Shown here: piece after piece, positions 4,047 to 40,479 of the stretch
How the letters are laid out: every line of letters starts with the position of its first letter
Position numbering within the stretch: position 1 is the first letter of the stretch
NCBI GenBank assembly: GCA_029433265.1
Contig: JAQTHT010000010.1
Span: 1 to 55,824 of the forward strand
Reading direction: 5' to 3'
DNA length: 55,824 bases
From: Leuconostocaceae bacterium ESL0958
Lineage (GTDB): Bacteria; Bacillota; Bacilli; Lactobacillales; Lactobacillaceae
The notes under the pieces: model-generated
What the model was told of the DNA's origin: nothing
The model's input: the letters and a program-made list of their open reading frames with translations, nothing else
Database searches by the model: none
Program-made: the position numbers and the translations under genes

Positions 4047-4236
4047 CGGTTAGTCTTCGTTTCATTCAAATTGCAAAGCGCACCGTTGAAAAACGACAGT
4101 CCAGTGGGTCTTCCCCACTGTCCCAGGCCGCCGTCTACCAAACGACACCCTTCGGCGACCGCACCTTTCCCCAACGTTCAACGTCCTGGTGGACTCCCGC
4201 TGGTTACTCATCTTGGTCGCAACCTCTTTGTTTGTT
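4047..4236 (-). ncRNA. Lysine riboswitch (L-box)
   Basis: Read on the minus strand, the leader contains the conserved L-box segments in order: AGGTTGCGACCAAGATGAGT, then GGGGAAAGGTGCGGTCGCCG with AAGGG, then CCTGGGACAGTGGGGAAGAC with CCACTGGACTGTCG, and a closing CTTTG that pairs with CAAAG at the 5' end. This five-helix aptamer binds L-lysine in the RNA itself. The downstream hairpin at 4015-4046 makes transcription termination the likely output. It controls the permease at 2527-3981. Confidence 0.92.
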
Positions 4237-21946: not shown

Positions 21947-23452
21947 TTAGTCCTCCTTTCCAGGCTTTGGATTAACCTTACCACTGTGCATGAAAAAGGA
22001 AAGTAGGAAGGCCAACAGTGCAAAGCCAGAAGCCAGCAAGAAGGAGGCGTGGAAGCCATCCAAACTAGCATTCAGTGCTTGGTGCCCAAAGGCCAGTGGG
22101 TCCTGCCCCTTCAAGCTGTTGCTTGGCATGTTGTTGTTAATCGTATTTTGCATCACGGAAGCCATCAAAGCCGTTCCCAAAGAAGCAGCGATTTGACGAG
22201 TCGTGTTGTTGACGGCCGTTCCTTGTGCGGACTGTGCCCGACCCAAGGCGCCCATGGCAGAAGAAGTCAATGGCATCATCGTGATTCCAACACCAGCCAT
22301 CCGGACCATGTAGAGCACCACGATGTAAAGCGTTGGTGTCGTATCCGTCAAGAAGTAGAAAGGCAATGTGCCGGCCAAAATCGTGGCAAAACCAAACATG
22401 GCCAATGGCTTAGCGCCGTACTTATCGTAGAGACTACCTGCAATTGGTGACAAAACCCCAATCATCAAGGCCCCTGGCAACAAAGTCAAACCAGAGTGCA
22501 AGGCAGAAAGACCCCGAACCTGCTGGATATAGATTGGTAGCACCATTTCCACCCCAATCATGGCCACGAAGGTCAAGGAAACCAAAATGGTGGTAATGGT
22601 AAACTGCTTGTTCTTAAAGACCATCATGTCCAAGAACGGCTTGTCCATGTGTGCTTGGTGCCGGGTAAATTCGATAATGATCAAAATACCAATGATAATT
22701 GGTGCGATGACCCAGGCGAAGTTTCCCCAGCCGTGGTCGGAAACCATGGCAGAACCAAAGAGCACAAAACCAAAGCCGGCCGTTGATTCGATCAAAGAAC
22801 GAACATTCAACTTGACCTTTTGCGTTGGCAAAACGTCCTTGAAGTAAACAGCAGACAAGAGCAGGACAATAATCGTGATTGGCAAAACCAAAGTAAAGAT
22901 GGAACGCCAGTCACCACCCCAGCTCAAACCAAAAATATCGTGCTGCTTATCTAAAATCCAACCGGACAGCGTTGGGCCGATGGCTGGGGCCATACCAATG
23001 ACCAAACCAACCATTCCCAAAGCCTTTCCACGGGAATTTTCATCGAACAGCGACAGGGCCACGACCTGCATCAATGGCATGACGACACCAGCCGCCATGG
23101 CTTGCAGGGCGCGGGCTACCATCAAGATCCAGAAGGAACTCGTTGGTGTGCCGGCTGCAATCGCCGTCCCAATCGTAAAGACGGTCAGGGCGAGCAGATA
23201 GAGCCGCTTCGTTGGAATGCGGGTCGTCATGTAGGCAGACACCGGCACCATAATCCCGTTGACCATCAAGAAAATCGTGGATAACCACTGCACTTGGGCA
23301 GAGTCCACGTCAAAGGCCGTCATCAGAGCGGGCTGGGCCGTTCCAAGGGCGGTCTGCATCAAAATAATGGAGAAGGAACCAATCATGAGCAAGGCCATCA
23401 TAGCCAAGCGATTGACTGGCTGCTTCGTCGTATCTTTTGCGACTTGCGCCAT
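21947..23452 (-). CDS. DHA2-family (14-TM) major facilitator drug efflux pump
   Basis: The 501-residue transporter has the EmrB/QacA layout: motif D1-like ALGTAQPALMTAF in helix 1, TRIPTKRLYLLAL between helices 2 and 3, motif C-like GLVIGMAPAIGPTLSG in helix 5, and about 14 helices. Such pumps export cationic or lipophilic compounds with proton antiport. The upstream promoter is a perfect TTGACA-17-TATAAT, implying strong expression unless repressed. No TetR or MarR regulator is adjacent. The DUF4811 partner follows. Confidence 0.9.
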   Translation of the reverse strand: MAQVAKDTTKQPVNRLAMMALLMIGSFSIILMQTALGTAQPALMTAFDVDSAQVQWLSTIFLMVNGIMVPVSAYMTTRIPTKRLYLLALTVFTIGTAIAAGTPTSSFWILMVARALQAMAAGVVMPLMQVVALSLFDENSRGKALGMVGLVIGMAPAIGPTLSGWILDKQHDIFGLSWGGDWRSIFTLVLPITIIVLLLSAVYFKDVLPTQKVKLNVRSLIESTAGFGFVLFGSAMVSDHGWGNFAWVIAPIIIGILIIIEFTRHQAHMDKPFLDMMVFKNKQFTITTILVSLTFVAMIGVEMVLPIYIQQVRGLSALHSGLTLLPGALMIGVLSPIAGSLYDKYGAKPLAMFGFATILAGTLPFYFLTDTTPTLYIVVLYMVRMAGVGITMMPLTSSAMGALGRAQSAQGTAVNNTTRQIAASLGTALMASVMQNTINNNMPSNSLKGQDPLAFGHQALNASLDGFHASFLLASGFALLAFLLSFFMHSGKVNPKPGKED

Positions 23453-32744: not shown

Positions 32745-33092
32745 TTACAGAAAATGATGCCCAATTGATAAGCCTAATTCTAATAGCACAAAACCAGCAA
32801 TCAACTGCCAGGCCAAATAAGCACAGCGGCGGCCAATACTAGGTTGCTGCCTGGCTTCGGTCATCATTGTGGAGAAAGTTGTGAGACCCGCTAAAAAGCC
32901 GGGCACTAAGAATATTTGGAGCGCGCCGCTGAGCACTGGACTAAACAAGCCCAACAGAAAACAGCCCGCTAGGTTAATCCAGGAAACCAGCGTCAAGAGC
33001 CGGCCCTGGTTGGGCACAGCCGTTAAGACCAAGTAGCGGCAAAAAGCCCCCAAGCCAGTCCCAACCATCACAAGTAATAGCTTAGTGAACAT
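32745..33092 (-). CDS. crcB2: Fluoride channel subunit CrcB/Fluc (second of pair)
   Basis: The 115-residue four-helix protein has GTGLGAFCRYL near the N-terminus, SWINLAGCFLLGL and the Fluc motif GLTTFSTMMTEA with the fluoride-lining Phe residues. Fluc channels are dual-topology dimers that export fluoride; when two genes occur in tandem, as here, they typically form a heterodimer with opposite orientations. It overlaps the first crcB by 11 bases. Confidence 0.88.
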   Translation of the reverse strand: MFTKLLLVMVGTGLGAFCRYLVLTAVPNQGRLLTLVSWINLAGCFLLGLFSPVLSGALQIFLVPGFLAGLTTFSTMMTEARQQPSIGRRCAYLAWQLIAGFVLLELGLSIGHHFL

Positions 33093-33498
33093 GACGCTCC
33101 TCCCGGTGAAAACGTTGCTGCACCAATTGTTCCGCCAGGTACACGGCCGCTAACGCAGCGAACAAGGTGGCAGCGAGGTACCCCCAGGCTAATAGTTGCC
33201 CTTGGGCCGCTCCTGCTGTTCGAAACTGGCTCATCAGGGTCCCAAAAGTGGTGTAGCCGCCTAAGAGTCCGGTCCCCAAAAAGGCTTGCAAAAAACGGGG
33301 CCCGGCCTGACTAGCTTTCATATAAGCCCCCAGATAAGCTAAGGCAAAAGTGCCTGTCACATTAATCAGCCAAGTCATCCAAATACTGGCGCCGACCTGG
33401 GGAATGGCCGTCAATAAATAACGGAGGCCACCCCCGAGCATCCCCCCTAAGAAGACTACCATCGCAGCGGTCCATTCTTCTTTTACTAACAACAGCAT
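33082..33498 (-). CDS. crcB1: Fluoride channel subunit CrcB/Fluc (first of pair)
   Basis: The 138-residue protein has FLGGMLGGGLRYLL, LINVTGTFALAYLG and GLLGGYTTFGTLMSQF, the four-helix Fluc layout. The first ATG at 33498 is only one base from AAAGGGG, so a nearby TTG or the Met of MVVFLGG may be the real start. A TGA-TATACT extended -10 lies upstream. No fluoride riboswitch was found in front. The longer C-terminal tail (HREERHVH) contains the start of crcB2. Confidence 0.85.
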   Translation of the reverse strand: MLLLVKEEWTAAMVVFLGGMLGGGLRYLLTAIPQVGASIWMTWLINVTGTFALAYLGAYMKASQAGPRFLQAFLGTGLLGGYTTFGTLMSQFRTAGAAQGQLLAWGYLAATLFAALAAVYLAEQLVQQRFHREERHVH

Positions 33499-33616: not shown

Positions 33617-33645
33617 TTGACAGTATCGCACTGCTCCTGTATGCT
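33617..33645 (+). promoter_or_regulatory. Promoter of the trpXYZ leader
   Basis: TTGACA, 17-nt spacer, TATGCT. Transcription should start near 33652, giving a leader of about 237 bases before trpX. Confidence 0.9.
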
Positions 33646-33682
33646 AAGATTAACTTTTAAATCACTGAAGGAGGACGTCACC

Positions 33683-33730
33683 ATGCGTCTCTTATCTGCA
33701 CAACTGAATCGCCAATGGTGGCGCCGGTAG
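33683..33730 (+). CDS. Tryptophan-rich leader peptide (15 residues) of trpXYZ
   Basis: The short frame MRLLSAQLNRQWWRR has a strong ribosome site (AAGGAGG, 8 bases upstream) and two adjacent Trp codons at positions 12-13 (33716-33721), three codons before the TAG. It follows a near-consensus promoter and precedes a terminator and a Trp-transporter-type operon. This is the classical layout of ribosome-mediated attenuation: slow decoding of Trp codons when Trp-tRNA is scarce changes downstream folding. It is too short to have a role as a protein. Coding is inferred from the signals, not proven. Confidence 0.8.
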   Translation: MRLLSAQLNRQWWRR

Positions 33731-33851
33731 GAACGCAGCTTGATCGGGAACGGACAGGCTGTGACAACAGTTTTGTCCCAACCGGCTCCTTTGCAATGCA
33801 TTAAAAGTCTGTTTGGGTTCAATTTATTTTACCCAGGCAGGCTTTTCTTTT
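33723..33851 (+). promoter_or_regulatory. Attenuator of trpXYZ with mutually exclusive hairpins
   Basis: A terminator is formed by AAAAGTCTGTTTGGG (33803-33817) and CCCAGGCAGGCTTTT (33832-33846), fully paired with G-U pairs and followed by CTTTTTC. A candidate antiterminator pairs CCCAA (33777-33781) with TTGGG (33813-33817). A third pairing, GCCGGT (33723-33728, directly after the Trp codons) with ACCGGC (33781-33786), would block it. A ribosome stalled at the Trp codons would cover GCCGGT and so favour antitermination. The pairings are read by eye. Confidence 0.65.
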
Positions 33852-33888
33852 TCTCTGAGACCTGTCTGGGTCGTCAAGGAGAGAAAGT

Positions 33889-34884
33889 ATGAACAAACGA
33901 TTACTAACGGCCATTAGTCTGATTACAGCCTTCTTGGTCTTGGCCTTCTTTACTGGCCAGCAAAACAACGGCAAAAAACACAAGGTCCCCACGGTGGGGA
34001 TCTTGCAGCTCGTCACCCACCCTGCTTTGGATCAAATCCATCAGGGGGTCGTCGCTGGTTTACAAGCAGGCGGCTACAAGGATGGGCAGAACGTTCACAT
34101 TAAGTATCAAAATGCGCAGGGCAATCAGGCCAACTTAAAGACGATGGCCCAAAACTTTGCCAATCAGGATATTGATCTTTCGGTTGGGATTACCACGCCC
34201 GCTGCGCTCTCCCTGGAAAAAGCCACTGGTCAAGGGACACCTCTAATTTTGGCCGGTATCACGGATCCCGTTGGTTCCCATTTAGCCAAGTCAAATGACA
34301 AGCCGGGCATGAACGTGACAGGCATCGCCGGTGATTCTCCTTATGAAAAGCAGGCAACGGTCATGCAAGAAGTCATGCCGAAGGCCAAGACCGTCGGCAT
34401 CGTCTCCACCTCTTCCGATCATGCGGGCACTTACCATGCCAAAAACATGACGAAGTTACTGGAAAAAAGAGGCTACAAAGTCAAGAACTACACCATTGCC
34501 TCGACCAACGACATGCAGCAAGTCGCCACGACCATGATGAGTCAAGTTGATGTGGTCTACGCACCGCAAGATAACGGCGTCGCCACAGCCATGAAGATTC
34601 TCGTGAGCGCTGGTAAAAAAGCTGGCGTACCCGTCTTCCCTGCCGCAGACACCATGGTCAAAGACGGCGGGGTCGCCTCCTATGCCGAGTCTCAATATGA
34701 AATTGGCTATCAAGCGGGCCGGCGGGCTGCCCGCGTTCTGAAAGGCGAGTCTGCTAAAAACATCCCAATTGAATCCATTACAAAGGGAACTTACGTCGTC
34801 AACAAAGAAAGTGCCGCTGATTTTGGCTTAACCATCCCAGATCAAATCATGCAGGCCGCACAAGCACACGGGGAGGTCTACTAA
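33889..34884 (+). CDS. trpX: ABC transporter substrate-binding protein, TrpX-like
   Basis: The 331-residue protein has an N-terminal hydrophobic segment (about 5-21) without a lipobox Cys, so it is probably anchored by an uncleaved helix. The rest has the two-lobe ABC_sub_bind fold: VGILQLVTHPALDQIHQGVV, VGITTPAALSL, ILAGITDPVGSHLA, VVYAPQDNGVATAM and a C-terminal GYQAGRRAARVL. This family forms the TrpXYZ importers of lactic acid bacteria and streptococci. The tandem-Trp leader in front supports tryptophan, not branched-chain amino acids, as ligand. AAGGAG precedes the start. Confidence 0.85.
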   Translation: MNKRLLTAISLITAFLVLAFFTGQQNNGKKHKVPTVGILQLVTHPALDQIHQGVVAGLQAGGYKDGQNVHIKYQNAQGNQANLKTMAQNFANQDIDLSVGITTPAALSLEKATGQGTPLILAGITDPVGSHLAKSNDKPGMNVTGIAGDSPYEKQATVMQEVMPKAKTVGIVSTSSDHAGTYHAKNMTKLLEKRGYKVKNYTIASTNDMQQVATTMMSQVDVVYAPQDNGVATAMKILVSAGKKAGVPVFPAADTMVKDGGVASYAESQYEIGYQAGRRAARVLKGESAKNIPIESITKGTYVVNKESAADFGLTIPDQIMQAAQAHGEVY

Positions 34885-34885
34885 T

Positions 34886-35785
34886 ATGTCTATTGTTGTT
34901 TCTAGTATTGCGCAGGGCCTACTCTGGGCCGTTCTGGGTCTGGCACTCTACCTGACCTTCCGTATTTTAAACTTTGCTGATTTGACCGTCGAAGGCTCCT
35001 TCCCACTGGGCGCCGCAACTGCCGTTGCGCTCATCGCCCATGGGACCAACCCCTACCTAGCCACGTTGGCTGCCATTGCCATTGGGGCGCTGGCGGGTCT
35101 GGTCACCGGCTTACTCTACACCAAAGGGAAAATTCCCGTCCTTCTAGCGGGTATCTTGGTCATGACCGCCTGCCTGTCGATTAACCTCCGGATTATGGGC
35201 GCTGCTAACATCTCCTTACTCAACCAGGAAACTATTTTCTCCGCCTCCTTCCTCCAGGACTTACCCAAGTACTTTGACGGTGTCGTCGTGGGCCTGATTA
35301 TTTTGACCGTCCTGATTAGCACCCTCATCTGGTTTTTACAAACGGAGCTGGGCCAGGCCTTTATTGCGACTGGTGATAATGCCAAAATGGCGGCTGCCTT
35401 TGGCATTAAAACCGACCAAATGACCATCATGGGGCTCATGGTCTCCAACGCCCTCATCGCCTTTGGGGGCGCCGTGATTGCCCAAAACAACGGTTTTGCC
35501 GACATCAACATGGGCATTGGCATTGTCGTCATCGCGCTGGCCTCTATCATTATTGGGGAGGTTTGCTTCGGGGAGCTCTCCCTCAACCAGCGGCTCGTGG
35601 CCATCGTGGTCGGCTCCATTATCTACCGCTTGGTCTTGCTCGCGGTCTTGCAGCTCGGTTTCTCAACCAACGACCTCAACTTGATTTCTTCCATTATTTT
35701 GGCTATCGCCATGATTTTGCCTCAAGCCCGGCACTATCTGAAACTCGACGGTATTCTTTCCCGAGGAGGTAACGCACATGACTAA
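34886..35785 (+). CDS. trpY: ABC transporter permease, TrpY-like
   Basis: The 299-residue permease resembles the branched-chain/BPD type-2 membrane domain, with about eight to nine helices. TFRILNFADLTVEGSFPLGA near the N-terminus and GLMVSNALIAFGGAVIAQNN near 190-210 (the region that contacts the ATPase) are conserved in TrpY/YtlD-like proteins. It starts one base after the trpX stop, with GGGGAGG inside the end of trpX, and overlaps trpZ by 8 bases. Confidence 0.88.
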   Translation: MSIVVSSIAQGLLWAVLGLALYLTFRILNFADLTVEGSFPLGAATAVALIAHGTNPYLATLAAIAIGALAGLVTGLLYTKGKIPVLLAGILVMTACLSINLRIMGAANISLLNQETIFSASFLQDLPKYFDGVVVGLIILTVLISTLIWFLQTELGQAFIATGDNAKMAAAFGIKTDQMTIMGLMVSNALIAFGGAVIAQNNGFADINMGIGIVVIALASIIIGEVCFGELSLNQRLVAIVVGSIIYRLVLLAVLQLGFSTNDLNLISSIILAIAMILPQARHYLKLDGILSRGGNAHD

Positions 35786-36533
35786 TCCAGTGATTGCCTT
35801 AAAGCAGGCCACCGTGACGGTTGGCCAAAACACTGATATTTTGAAGCAGGTCGACCTGGACATTTATCCGGGGGACTTCATTACGATTCTGGGTACGAAC
35901 GGCGCTGGTAAATCGACCCTTTTCAACAGCATTTCAGGTGATTTGACCCTGTCCTCCGGTCAGATCTTGCACCATGACCGCGACATTACGCAGGTCCCGG
36001 CCGTTAAAAGAACGCGCTTTATCGCCCGCGTTTTTCAGGACCCCAAGATGGGCACGGCACCGAGAATGACCGTAGCCGAAAACTTGCTCCTAGCTGAAAA
36101 GCGCGGCCAGCGGCGCACGCTCAGAAACCGGCATTTAACGGCCAACAAACTAGCCCAGTACTATGACATGACCAAGCAAATGGGCAACAACCTAGAGGAC
36201 CGGCTGCAGACTGCTGCTGGTGCGCTCTCCGGGGGACAGCGCCAAGCACTCTCCTTCCTCATGTCCATTCAAGTCAAACCGGAACTACTGCTCTTAGATG
36301 AGCACACGGCCGCCCTTGATCCGAAAACGGCGGCCCAACTTCTCCATGCCACCAACCAGCAAGTCACGGAGAACCAGCTTACCGCGCTGATGATTACCCA
36401 TAATTTGAAGGATGCCCTCCAGTATGGTAATCGGCTCCTCATTTTAAATGCCGGTAAGATTGTTCTCGATGTCCGCGACGAAGCTAAGAAAGCCCTGACT
36501 GAGCAGGAAGCACTGTCCTACTTCGTCAATTAA
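35778..36533 (+). CDS. trpZ: ABC transporter ATP-binding protein, TrpZ-like
   Basis: The 251-residue ATPase has Walker A GTNGAGKST (about 39-47), the signature LSGGQRQALS near 148-157 and Walker B LLLLDEHTAAL, where His follows the catalytic Glu as in this subfamily (DEHTAALDP). It energises TrpXY import. GAGGAGG precedes the start within trpY. A bidirectional terminator follows the stop. Confidence 0.93.
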   Translation: MTNPVIALKQATVTVGQNTDILKQVDLDIYPGDFITILGTNGAGKSTLFNSISGDLTLSSGQILHHDRDITQVPAVKRTRFIARVFQDPKMGTAPRMTVAENLLLAEKRGQRRTLRNRHLTANKLAQYYDMTKQMGNNLEDRLQTAAGALSGGQRQALSFLMSIQVKPELLLLDEHTAALDPKTAAQLLHATNQQVTENQLTALMITHNLKDALQYGNRLLILNAGKIVLDVRDEAKKALTEQEALSYFVN

Positions 36534-36543
36534 CAGCAAACAA

Positions 36544-36577
36544 AAAGGCAGCTAGTGTACCAACACTAGCTGCCTTT
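36544..36577. terminator. Bidirectional terminator
   Basis: AAAGGCAGCTAGTGT pairs with its full complement around a 4-nt loop between convergent genes. Confidence 0.92.
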
Positions 36578-36585
36578 TCTTGTGA

Positions 36586-38999: not shown

Positions 39000-40250
39000 T
39001 TATTTAACAACCGTCCCCAAGAAGTACTTCTTCTTACCCCGGCGGACCAATACATAGCGCCCTTCATACTGACTACTTGGTTCAATCACCGTGTCGACGG
39101 CTGTTTCCTTCTGTCCGTTAATAGTAATGGCGCCGTTTTGAACGTCTTCCCTTGCCTGCCGCTTGGACTTTTCGATACCAGCGGCCACGAGGAAGTCAAT
39201 GATATTTTGACTAGAAGCCGTTGTTTCGAAGCCAGGAACACCCGCAAAAACATCTTCGATTTCACGAACGGACAGGGCTGCTACGTCTCCCGAAAAGAGC
39301 ATTTGGGATAACTTCTCCGCTTCGGCCACAGCGTCCTGTCCATGAACAAAGGCGGTCACTTCTTCTGCCAATCGTTTCTGTCCCAAGCGGCCGCCTGGAT
39401 TTTCAGCGACCTCCTTTTCCAAGGCGGCAATTTCATCCTGGTCTAGGAAGGTAAAGTACTTCAAGTACTTGACCACATCGGCATCCGCCTGGTTATACCA
39501 GAACTGGTAGAACGTGTAAGGCGATGTCATTTCTGGATCCAACCAAATGGCATTTCCTTCTGATTTACCAAACTTTTTACCACTGGCATCGGTCATTAGT
39601 GGGATGGTCAAACCGTAGGCCTGTGCATCATTCCCTTCGACTGCATGAATCAAATCAATGCCCGCTGTAATATTTCCCCATTGGTCAGAACCACCAATTT
39701 CTAAACGAACATGTTCTTCTTGATAAAGGTGGAGAAAATCAATTGCTTGGAGGATTTGATACGTGAATTCGGTAAAGGAGATGCCGCTTTCCAAACGGGA
39801 AGCAATAATTTCCTTCTTCAACATGACATTAATGGAGAACAACTTTCCATAGTCCCGCAGGAAAGTTGGCAAAGTTAAGCTACCCAACCAATCGTTGTTA
39901 TTGACAATGCGCGTCCCATCAGAACCAAAGAGCTTGGTCACTTGCTTGGCAATTTTTTCTTCATTATAAGCCAGTGTTTCATCAGATAGTAGCTTTCGTT
40001 CTGTGGTTGGTCGTGGATCCCCAATGGAGCCCGTGGCGCCCCCAACAATAATGACTGCCTTACCACCCGCTCGTTGAAAACGTTTCAACACCATAAAGGG
40101 AATTAAGTGGCCCAAATGAAGGGAAGGCGCCGTTGGGTCAGCGCCGACATAAGCCCCAATTTGTCCGGCTGCCATCGCTTCCAACAACCCTTCCTCATCA
40201 GTGACCTGGTTCAAGGCGCCTCGCCAGTTCAAATCTTCAATAAAATTCAT
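39000..40250 (-). CDS. tyrS: Tyrosine--tRNA ligase
   Basis: The 416-residue class I synthetase has the HLGH form of the ATP motif (PSLHLGHLIP, near 42-51), GGSDQWGNITAG for tyrosine recognition near 190, KFGKS near 230 and a C-terminal S4 RNA-binding domain (residues ~350-416, KSKRQAREDVQNGAITINGQ). A T-box leader controls it, so it is induced when uncharged tRNA-Tyr accumulates. AAAGGAGG precedes the start. The only tRNA-Tyr seen in this window is at 29016-29098. Confidence 0.97.
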   Translation of the reverse strand: MNFIEDLNWRGALNQVTDEEGLLEAMAAGQIGAYVGADPTAPSLHLGHLIPFMVLKRFQRAGGKAVIIVGGATGSIGDPRPTTERKLLSDETLAYNEEKIAKQVTKLFGSDGTRIVNNNDWLGSLTLPTFLRDYGKLFSINVMLKKEIIASRLESGISFTEFTYQILQAIDFLHLYQEEHVRLEIGGSDQWGNITAGIDLIHAVEGNDAQAYGLTIPLMTDASGKKFGKSEGNAIWLDPEMTSPYTFYQFWYNQADADVVKYLKYFTFLDQDEIAALEKEVAENPGGRLGQKRLAEEVTAFVHGQDAVAEAEKLSQMLFSGDVAALSVREIEDVFAGVPGFETTASSQNIIDFLVAAGIEKSKRQAREDVQNGAITINGQKETAVDTVIEPSSQYEGRYVLVRRGKKKYFLGTVVK

Positions 40251-40271: not shown

Positions 40272-40467
40272 AAGCCCTAATCATCTCTGATTAGGGCGAA
40301 TGCTTTCCGCGGTACCACCTAACTTGCAAGTTACCTTGCCACTGTTCAGCCTTATCGCGGCCCACGTCATCTTGTTCTTCTGTGTAACTCAGTTTTGTTG
40401 GGATCTGCTCACAGCCAACGCAGACTCTCTGAAACACCAATGCTCAAAACCTTTGCCAGAAAATGAT
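40272..40467 (-). ncRNA. T-box riboswitch of tyrS
   Basis: The minus-strand leader of about 200 bases contains the T-box sequence GGTGGTACCGCGGAAAG (40303-40319), whose TGGT part pairs with the tRNA acceptor end. A terminator GCCCTAATCA-GAGA-TGATTAGGGC with a T run (40272-40297) follows. In the upstream half, GAGTTACACAG offers TAC as the tyrosine specifier codon. Uncharged tRNA-Tyr would stabilise the antiterminator and allow tyrS transcription. Confidence 0.93.
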
Positions 40468-40473
40468 GCCTTT

Positions 40474-40479
40474 ATTATA
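40474..40479 (-). promoter_or_regulatory. Extended -10 promoter of the T-box/tyrS transcript
   Basis: Minus-strand TGC-TATAAT, directly downstream of the esterase stop codon. The -35 is weak and would fall at the esterase's last codons. Confidence 0.65.

Follow-up and report, generated by a model that had tools for sequence, protein, structure and literature searches.

In the trp attenuator of Proteobacteria, a short reading frame holds the regulatory codons and the position of the ribosome upon it chooses between an antiterminator and a terminator, and the his leader attenuator of the same bacteria is a chain of six segments. The his attenuators described in PMC9413887 likewise place regulatory codons in a short frame and let ribosome position choose between the two structures. 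Some His leaders of Bacillota are also described as leader-peptide attenuators replacing T-boxes (PMC2965389, PMC9413887), and in Streptococcus suis trpXYZ is described as controlled by a Trp T-box (PMC9382623). A further RNA, the ‘trpB motif’ (Rfam RF04312), was placed by Narunsky et al. 2024 among their strong candidates for riboswitches. It has over 900 representatives, spread over Firmicutes and Fusobacteria, and its commonest position is ahead of an uncharacterized ABC transporter; the passage on this motif leaves a classic attenuator possible and makes no mention of a leader frame (PMC11109978).

The DNA analyzed here (the window, 55,824 nucleotides) comes from a Fructobacillus genome of 1.3 Mb and carries a trpXYZ operon. 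Comparison with related sequences indicates that this operon, a predicted tryptophan importer, is very probably controlled by its leader through ribosome-mediated transcription attenuation, and the leader appears to be one corner of a larger family.

The trpXYZ locus and its leader RNA

The features of the locus are as follows, segments a to h being parts of the leader RNA:

33617..33645 (+): promoter-like site, TTGACA, 17-base spacer, TATGCT (consensus scan, 10 of 12 letters)
33670..33675 (+): GGAGGA, ribosome-binding site for the leader frame (sequence)
33683..33730 (+): leader peptide frame MRLLSAQLNRQWWRR, 15 codons, ATG at 33683, stop TAG at 33728-33730
33716..33721 (+): Trp codons 12 and 13, the predicted regulatory codons (sequence)
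33723..33729 (+): segment a, partner of e if uncovered by the ribosome (fold, covariation)
33735..33742 (+): segment b, free with a ribosome waiting at Trp and covered with a ribosome at the stop (fold, covariation)
33752..33762 (+): segment c, partner of b through 33755-33762 and of d through 33752-33756 (fold, covariation)
33774..33778 (+): segment d, partner of c once b is covered (fold)
33775..33786 (+): segment e, antiterminator strand, overlapping d and partner of a (fold)
33803..33818 (+): segment f, terminator 5' arm, partner of e or g (fold, covariation)
33831..33846 (+): segment g, terminator 3' arm with a T-rich tract behind it (fold, covariation)
33861..33871 (+): segment h, possible partner of g when e holds f (g:h permutation test)
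33889..34884 (+): trpX, substrate-binding protein (NF041285, 392.1 bits)
34886..35785 (+): trpY, permease, BPD_transp_2 (Pfam PF02653)
35778..36533 (+): trpZ, ATP-binding protein, ABC_tran (Pfam PF00005)

The first-pass annotation of this DNA had described a consensus promoter, a 15-residue frame with a strong ribosome site and Trp codons at positions 12 and 13, and three overlapping pairings, and all of these were located. The promoter-like site has its -35 element at 33617-33622 and its -10 element at 33640-33645, and is one of two such sites found by the consensus scan in a 601-base region, compared with a shuffle mean of 0.6. The C-terminal residues NRQWWRR and the following stop are shared by all 12 loci of the same genus (L001-L012); in L015 (G004:C7), also from this genus, the trpX match contains one internal TAA. 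The pairings GCCGGT/ACCGGC and CCCAA/TTGGG and the 16-bp terminator stem (33803-33818/33831-33846) are present in the leader. The switch is completed by two more pairings, 33735-33742/33755-33762 and 33752-33756/33774-33778; neither these nor segment h had been listed in the first-pass annotation.

The TrpX protein exceeds the cut-off of the TrpX equivalog model NF041285 by a thin margin (392.1 against 390 bits), and on this match trpXYZ is predicted to encode a TrpXYZ importer. Tryptophan as the predicted substrate, for which the first-pass annotation had seen support in the leader, is backed by the same match and by the agreement between leader codons and transporter clade given below. No trpB match was found in the window's own genome, while 14 of 14 control genomes do have one, which is consistent with a need for tryptophan import. 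A strong inverted repeat ending in T at 36542-36578, 3' of trpZ, is probably the operon terminator. Two small adjoining membrane-protein frames (32745-33498, minus strand) diverge from trpX and resemble, as we take them, a CrcB/FluC fluoride channel pair. Elsewhere in the window there are a lysine riboswitch (4068-4236, minus strand, 101.3 bits), a match to the L31-Coriobacteria leader family that is odd for this taxon (22730-22762, plus strand, 35.3 against a cut-off of 33), and a T-box match (40289-40476, minus strand) that at 65 bits falls short of the cut-off of 93 and lies upstream of a frame at 39000-40250, presumably a tyrosyl-tRNA synthetase.

The folding of the leader RNA was more stable than that of all 200 dinucleotide shuffles (z -4.8). 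The switch was modeled on RNA cut at the end of f, with a ribosome masking 12 bases past the first base of the A-site codon, this mask being an assumption based on ribosome footprints. With the ribosome at Trp codon 12, b:c reached 0.97 and e:f 0.64; with the ribosome at the stop, c:d reached 0.90 and e:f fell to 0.13; and with no ribosome the values were 0.78 for a:e, 0.99 for b:c and 0.01 for e:f. In this model, therefore, the window fold up to f is predicted to switch along the expected logic. At full-length equilibrium the window's terminator always wins, so the choice between the folds would need to be made kinetically.

The same calculation was made for 94 leaders, over the eight best positions of f. 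In 79 of them, d/e was likelier to capture f with a ribosome waiting at Trp than with one at the stop; the mean probabilities were 0.76 at Trp, 0.36 at the stop and 0.46 without a ribosome, and both 0.5 thresholds were crossed by only 46 of the 94. Six Fructobacillus leaders (L005-L008, L010 and L012) stayed at or below 0.11 even with a stalled ribosome; the fold model as used here does not work for several close relatives of the window.

Spread and covariation of the leader

Relatives of TrpX were drawn from 41 genomes (37 with a match) and from a 295-genome sample of the order (243 with a match). A Trp-coded leader was found in 95 of 112 upstream regions, representing 47 genera and six families (f1, f2, f3, f5, f7 and f9), the leaders being chosen by eye out of filtered frames and the main set being selected for having a frame. 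Among named-record trpX loci the count was 25 of 25. The leaders carry one to three Trp codons in their last 11 residues. The first-pass annotation had proposed that conservation of the two adjacent Trp codons be checked across relatives: Trp codons as such are kept in the 47 genera, while the tandem is not essential, 48 of the 95 leaders having a single one. The peptides are 11 to 24 residues long, their N-terminal parts look unrelated, and a C-terminal motif, W-Q-S/N or W-W-R-R, recurs.

No Trp-coded frame was found by the filters in the remaining 17 of the 112 regions (L015, L020, L025, L041, L045, L063, L085-L089, L098, L106-L109 and L111). Of these, L111 is a repeat of L029, and the stretches taken for L015 and L025 cut the frame. 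L106-L109 precede paralogues, and the stretches L190, L198, L218 and L219 there are Tyr/Phe-coded. In genus g16, L085-L089 have no Trp frame, but L214-L216, from three other genomes, have one.

The Trp leaders were built into a covariance model, R1. The match of this model in the window spans 33716-33850 and begins at the Trp codons, and 198 of the 295 genomes sampled in the order have a match. The leader arrangement is common in the order, and the earlier view that such an attenuator is unusual in Bacillota did not hold. Among 398 genomes of the phylum, nine had an R1 match, including G000 and G032 of the order, and G669; the six others all scored 32.7-35.6 bits, and in two of them, G626 and G633, only short frames unlike those seen elsewhere were present. 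Note that searches over more than 40 genomes ran under stricter filters, with weak matches being lost.

Trp-coded leaders also precede trpB, in L153 (confirmed by TIGR00263) and in L202, where the gene is named by resemblance only. Several other loci were recorded in passing. L154 (G039:C1:612800-617700) has a Trp-coded leader nearly identical to that of L153 with no trpB frame behind it. In L155 (G086:C1:26500-30800), a Trp-coded leader is followed by a reverse-transcriptase-like frame, which we take to be group II intron-like, and then by trpX-like pieces. The Trp-coded leader of L203 (G113:C1:1157500-1160600), MTLVFISWQGWHRIK, has an unexpected target gene, presumably a PTS component. L274 is a Sedimentibacter record with a Trichococcus-like trpX and leader, perhaps owing to transfer or contamination.

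When the leaders were aligned at the Trp codon, the segments formed the chain a, b, c, d/e, f, g, with a:e, b:c, c:d, e:f and f:g as possible helices. Duplex energies within each molecule were better than in all 5000 re-pairings of segments between leaders for all five helices (one leader per genus, n = 47, a leader missing a segment being scored as zero energy). Within the window's family alone, none of 5000 permutations did as well for any of the five (21-23 leaders per helix). Outside this family (24 genera), four of the five were significant, and e:f was not (442/5000). The stem covariation that the first-pass annotation had suggested looking for was accordingly seen in all five helices, e:f outside the window's family being the part that failed.

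Individual base pairs were examined in an alignment of 44 of the 95 leaders, one or two per genus, from which leaders on a list of eleven poorly aligning ones, and then five more, were left out. Pairs changed on both sides numbered 17 of 23 for c:d and f:g, 11 of 14 for b:c and e:f, and 6 of 7 for a:e. The proportion of paired cells was 90.5%, 90.9% and 86.0%, respectively, against at most 49.6% in slid controls. The count of double-changed pairs was reached by 13 of 500 shuffles for c:d and f:g and by 23 of 500 for a:e, and the number of further pair types at a:e was reached by 15 of 500. A mutually exclusive antiterminator and terminator with covariation were thereby found, with the exception of e:f outside the family.

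A second terminator-like hairpin lies ahead of trpX in 39 of 45 genera, compared with 7 of 135 shuffles, and segment h overlaps it in 33 of the 45. Complementarity between g and h was better than in all 5000 re-pairings (one leader per genus, n = 45), and the result held inside the window's family, outside it, and among 16 leaders from Fructobacillus and three neighbouring genera. As g can pair with h, and h overlaps the second hairpin, a freed g could disarm the second terminator. In the window h is present, and the same hairpin test detected no second terminator. A window hairpin at 33847-33886 contains h and pairs with the trpX ribosome site, and on this predicted fold it may be a translational gate. 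Within the whole scheme, the pairing of g with h and the second gate are the least certain step.

Re-coded leaders and two Rfam families

Extra R1 matches revealed leaders that share this build and carry Tyr and Phe codons at the matching places (TGG-CAA-AAC-TGG-CGT-AGA-TAG compared with TAC-TTT-AGC-TAT-TTT-AGA-TAG). A model of these Tyr/Phe leaders (R2) matched 92 of 138 genomes of the order, its weaker matches including Trp-coded trpX leaders, and 2 of 338 genomes of the phylum, both inside the order. At the R2 loci a Tyr/Phe-coded frame was present in 32 of 34, ahead of a TrpX paralogue (16), aroE (15) or aroF (1), the other two being a trpX leader and a locus with no frame. At the R1 loci a Trp-coded frame preceded a TrpX-type substrate-binding protein in 30 of 31, the last one having no frame. 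The two loci yielding no frame by the filter are L313 and L135. Part of this R1/R2 result is given in advance, because the codon columns, as well as some of the scored loci, went into the two models. The Tyr/Phe set keeps helix a:e in 96.5% of cells despite the changed codons; here the further pair types were reached by 242 of 500 shuffles.

The protein tree and the RF04312 test described below are free of this built-in bias. In a tree of 58 substrate-binding proteins (17 further rows having been lost to a text filter), the 35 Trp-coded and the 23 Tyr/Phe-coded proteins are split by one branch with support 100. In BLAST comparisons, seven of the 31 R1 proteins came out a little closer to the paralogue reference than to the window's TrpX; the three of these present in the tree all group with TrpX. 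Of the proteins scanned with the TrpX model, the two Trp-coded ones passed, at 400 and 449 bits, and the six Tyr/Phe-coded ones, at 319-367 bits, fell below its cut-off of 390. Codon type agrees with transporter clade, with one change on the 58-protein tree.

The R1 match in G669 lies outside the class, and a search of 44 genomes around it gave 16 matches in nine genomes (34-50 bits). All 16 have a leader frame, of which five are Leu-coded, seven Phe-coded, two Tyr-coded and two Val/Phe-coded, and a strict residue count was passed by 11 of the 16 compared with 9 of 800 shuffles. Fourteen precede NSS symporter-like proteins and two an ABC permease, and of eight downstream proteins scanned seven gave SNF-family matches and one a BPD_transp_2 match. 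The protein behind a Leu-coded leader aligns with LeuT over residues 2 to 445 of 461, LeuT not being its best match, and the best solved relative of a Phe-coded example is 4us3, which we take to be MhsT. The Val/Phe-coded leaders in this other class (L324 and L327) read QVVFNSQF(R/I) and stand before a TrpY-type ABC permease.

The exchange of a and e between codon types was studied in 65 leaders of four codon types; e was found by pattern in 35 of the 47 Trp-leader genera, the window's genus being absent, and the 65 do not include the Tyr- and Val/Phe-coded leaders from the other class, four in all. Segment a paired with its own e better than in all 5000 re-pairings, and the Leu-type e pairs even better with the Tyr/Phe-type a than with its own. 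Segment e differs with codon type.

At both the gathering score and E 10, an Rfam search of the window leader gave no match. A reading as an unknown RNA family on this basis was dropped, as relatives match RF04312 and RF02863. Segments c, d/e, f and g of L029, L074 and L153 match RF04312 at 68.1-69.8 bits, and L022 does so at 52.7 bits, under the gathering score of 59. The RF04312 model starts at c and contains neither the leader frame nor segments a and b, so the presence of an upstream frame is a test not presupposed by the model. A Trp-coded frame with a ribosome site ending near the motif was found at 30 of 33 RF04312 loci, many of them met earlier through trpX, compared with 2.6% of shuffles; the three loci with no Trp frame are three sub-cut-off matches outside the order and are taken as chance. 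RF04312 was found in 69 of 118 genomes of the order, 26 over the cut-off, and in 4 of 299 genomes of the phylum, one over the cut-off, and many R1 matches in the order coincide with RF04312 matches when their places are compared by eye.

RF04312 itself did not hit the window leader (E up to 10), L001 (E up to 1) or the window's own genome (E 0.001). The window copy is too divergent for this model and is linked to the motif only via its relatives, through which the window element and the trpB motif would belong to the same RNA family. A second Rfam entry, sRNA_2410 (RF02863, Enterococcus), covers the Tyr/Phe-coded aroE leader (L183, 78.4 bits; L209, 65 bits). It is filed as an sRNA gene, whereas it is read here as the transcript of an attenuated aroE leader.

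Proposed mechanism, alternatives and related systems

The leader frames and their codons, the covariation of the helices and the co-occurrence of codon type with gene type were seen directly, and from these we infer translation, stalling, termination and a response to the amino acid. The leader frame would be translated behind the polymerase. When charged tRNA-Trp is short, the ribosome would wait at Trp 12 or 13, covering a only, so that b:c could form and d/e would be free to capture f, giving read-through into trpXYZ. When tryptophan is plentiful, the ribosome would reach the stop and cover both a and b; c:d and f:g would then form and transcription would end. Without translation, a:e and b:c would form and termination would be favoured again. 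In most relatives the freed g may pair into the second terminator via h, and one ribosome position may in this way open two gates. Re-coding would fit each family member to its downstream gene, with codons for Trp, Tyr/Phe, Phe or Leu. The broader proposition is likely, in our estimate: one scaffold would have spread through Bacillota as a codon-programmable module in which the codon cassette and segment e are exchanged (Trp, Tyr/Phe, Phe, Leu), the trpB motif would be its downstream half, and the stalled ribosome would open two serial terminators.

The ribosome-stalling attenuation proposed in the first-pass annotation is supported by the comparison, through the Trp codons in 47 genera and the helix covariation, and other readings of the leader were weighed against it. 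The trpB motif RNA might bind an amino-acid-related ligand directly, the frame being incidental, as its standing among the strong riboswitch candidates would suggest (PMC11109978). Set against this, the Rfam model spans only c to g, yet 30 of 33 of its loci have a Trp-coded frame upstream; what is conserved is a series of helices that exclude one another, and no separate conserved pocket was seen in the alignments; gene type tracks the codons of the frame; and the authors' own passage allows a classic attenuator (PMC11109978). A riboswitch is for these reasons very unlikely.

Lower still do we place an arrest peptide resembling TnaC, in which free tryptophan would bind the ribosome and nascent chain and block release at the stop. 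The recurrence of the short C-terminal motif (W-Q-S/N or W-W-R-R) fits such a peptide. A TnaC-type sensing peptide, though, is expected to hold its Trp-to-stop distance fixed. In the 95 leaders, the first tail Trp lies 4 to 9 codons from the stop (the lone value of 10, in L110, counts an earlier Trp), the N-terminal parts are unrelated, homologues replace the tail with Tyr/Phe or Leu codons, and the letters of the tail double as a strand of helix a:e, all of which makes this sort of arrest highly improbable.

A Trp T-box binding tRNA-Trp, as described for trpX of S. suis (PMC9382623), would bring about the same control, and the window's genome does hold 16 T-box matches, four of them over the cut-off; none of the 16 lies at the leader locus, where RF00230 gives no match even at E 10, and this reading has almost no probability left. 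The leader might also have decayed or be constitutive, keeping a plain terminator and conserved through relatedness only, and the weak e:f in the fold model of several Fructobacillus leaders points that way. This too has almost no probability left, as five helices covary across 47 genera and inside the family alone and the frame stays open despite unrelated N-terminal sequences.

On the attenuator reading, the trpB motif, an orphan candidate for a riboswitch represented over 900 times (PMC11109978), would gain a concrete, testable mechanism, and it is suggested that no ligand pocket need be sought in it. The leader codons would predict what unassigned importers carry: Trp in the TrpX clade, Tyr/Phe in its paralogue and Phe, Tyr or Leu in the NSS symporters. 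Leader-peptide attenuation would also be widespread where T-boxes are the expected device and occur in the same genome. Relative to the full-text literature in PMC, the novelty lies in treating the trpB motif as one half of a leader-peptide attenuator and in the re-coding of one scaffold; the mechanism itself is ordinary.

Among the known systems, the trpB motif differs in how it is filed, as a riboswitch candidate, and is read here as a leader-peptide attenuator. The S. suis T-box serves the same operon with the same expected response; there, the tRNA is described as bound directly (PMC9382623), whereas the window leader is predicted to be translated instead. In its use of exchangeable codons, the codon-programmable attenuator would be the translated counterpart of a T-box with an exchangeable specifier. 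The His attenuators of Bacillota serve another amino acid through runs of His codons (PMC2965389, PMC9413887) and are not known to be related to the window RNA. The trp and his attenuators of Proteobacteria have other sequences and other genes, and in comparison with them the window's family has a long-range a:e helix, often a single regulatory codon, often two terminators, and re-coded members.
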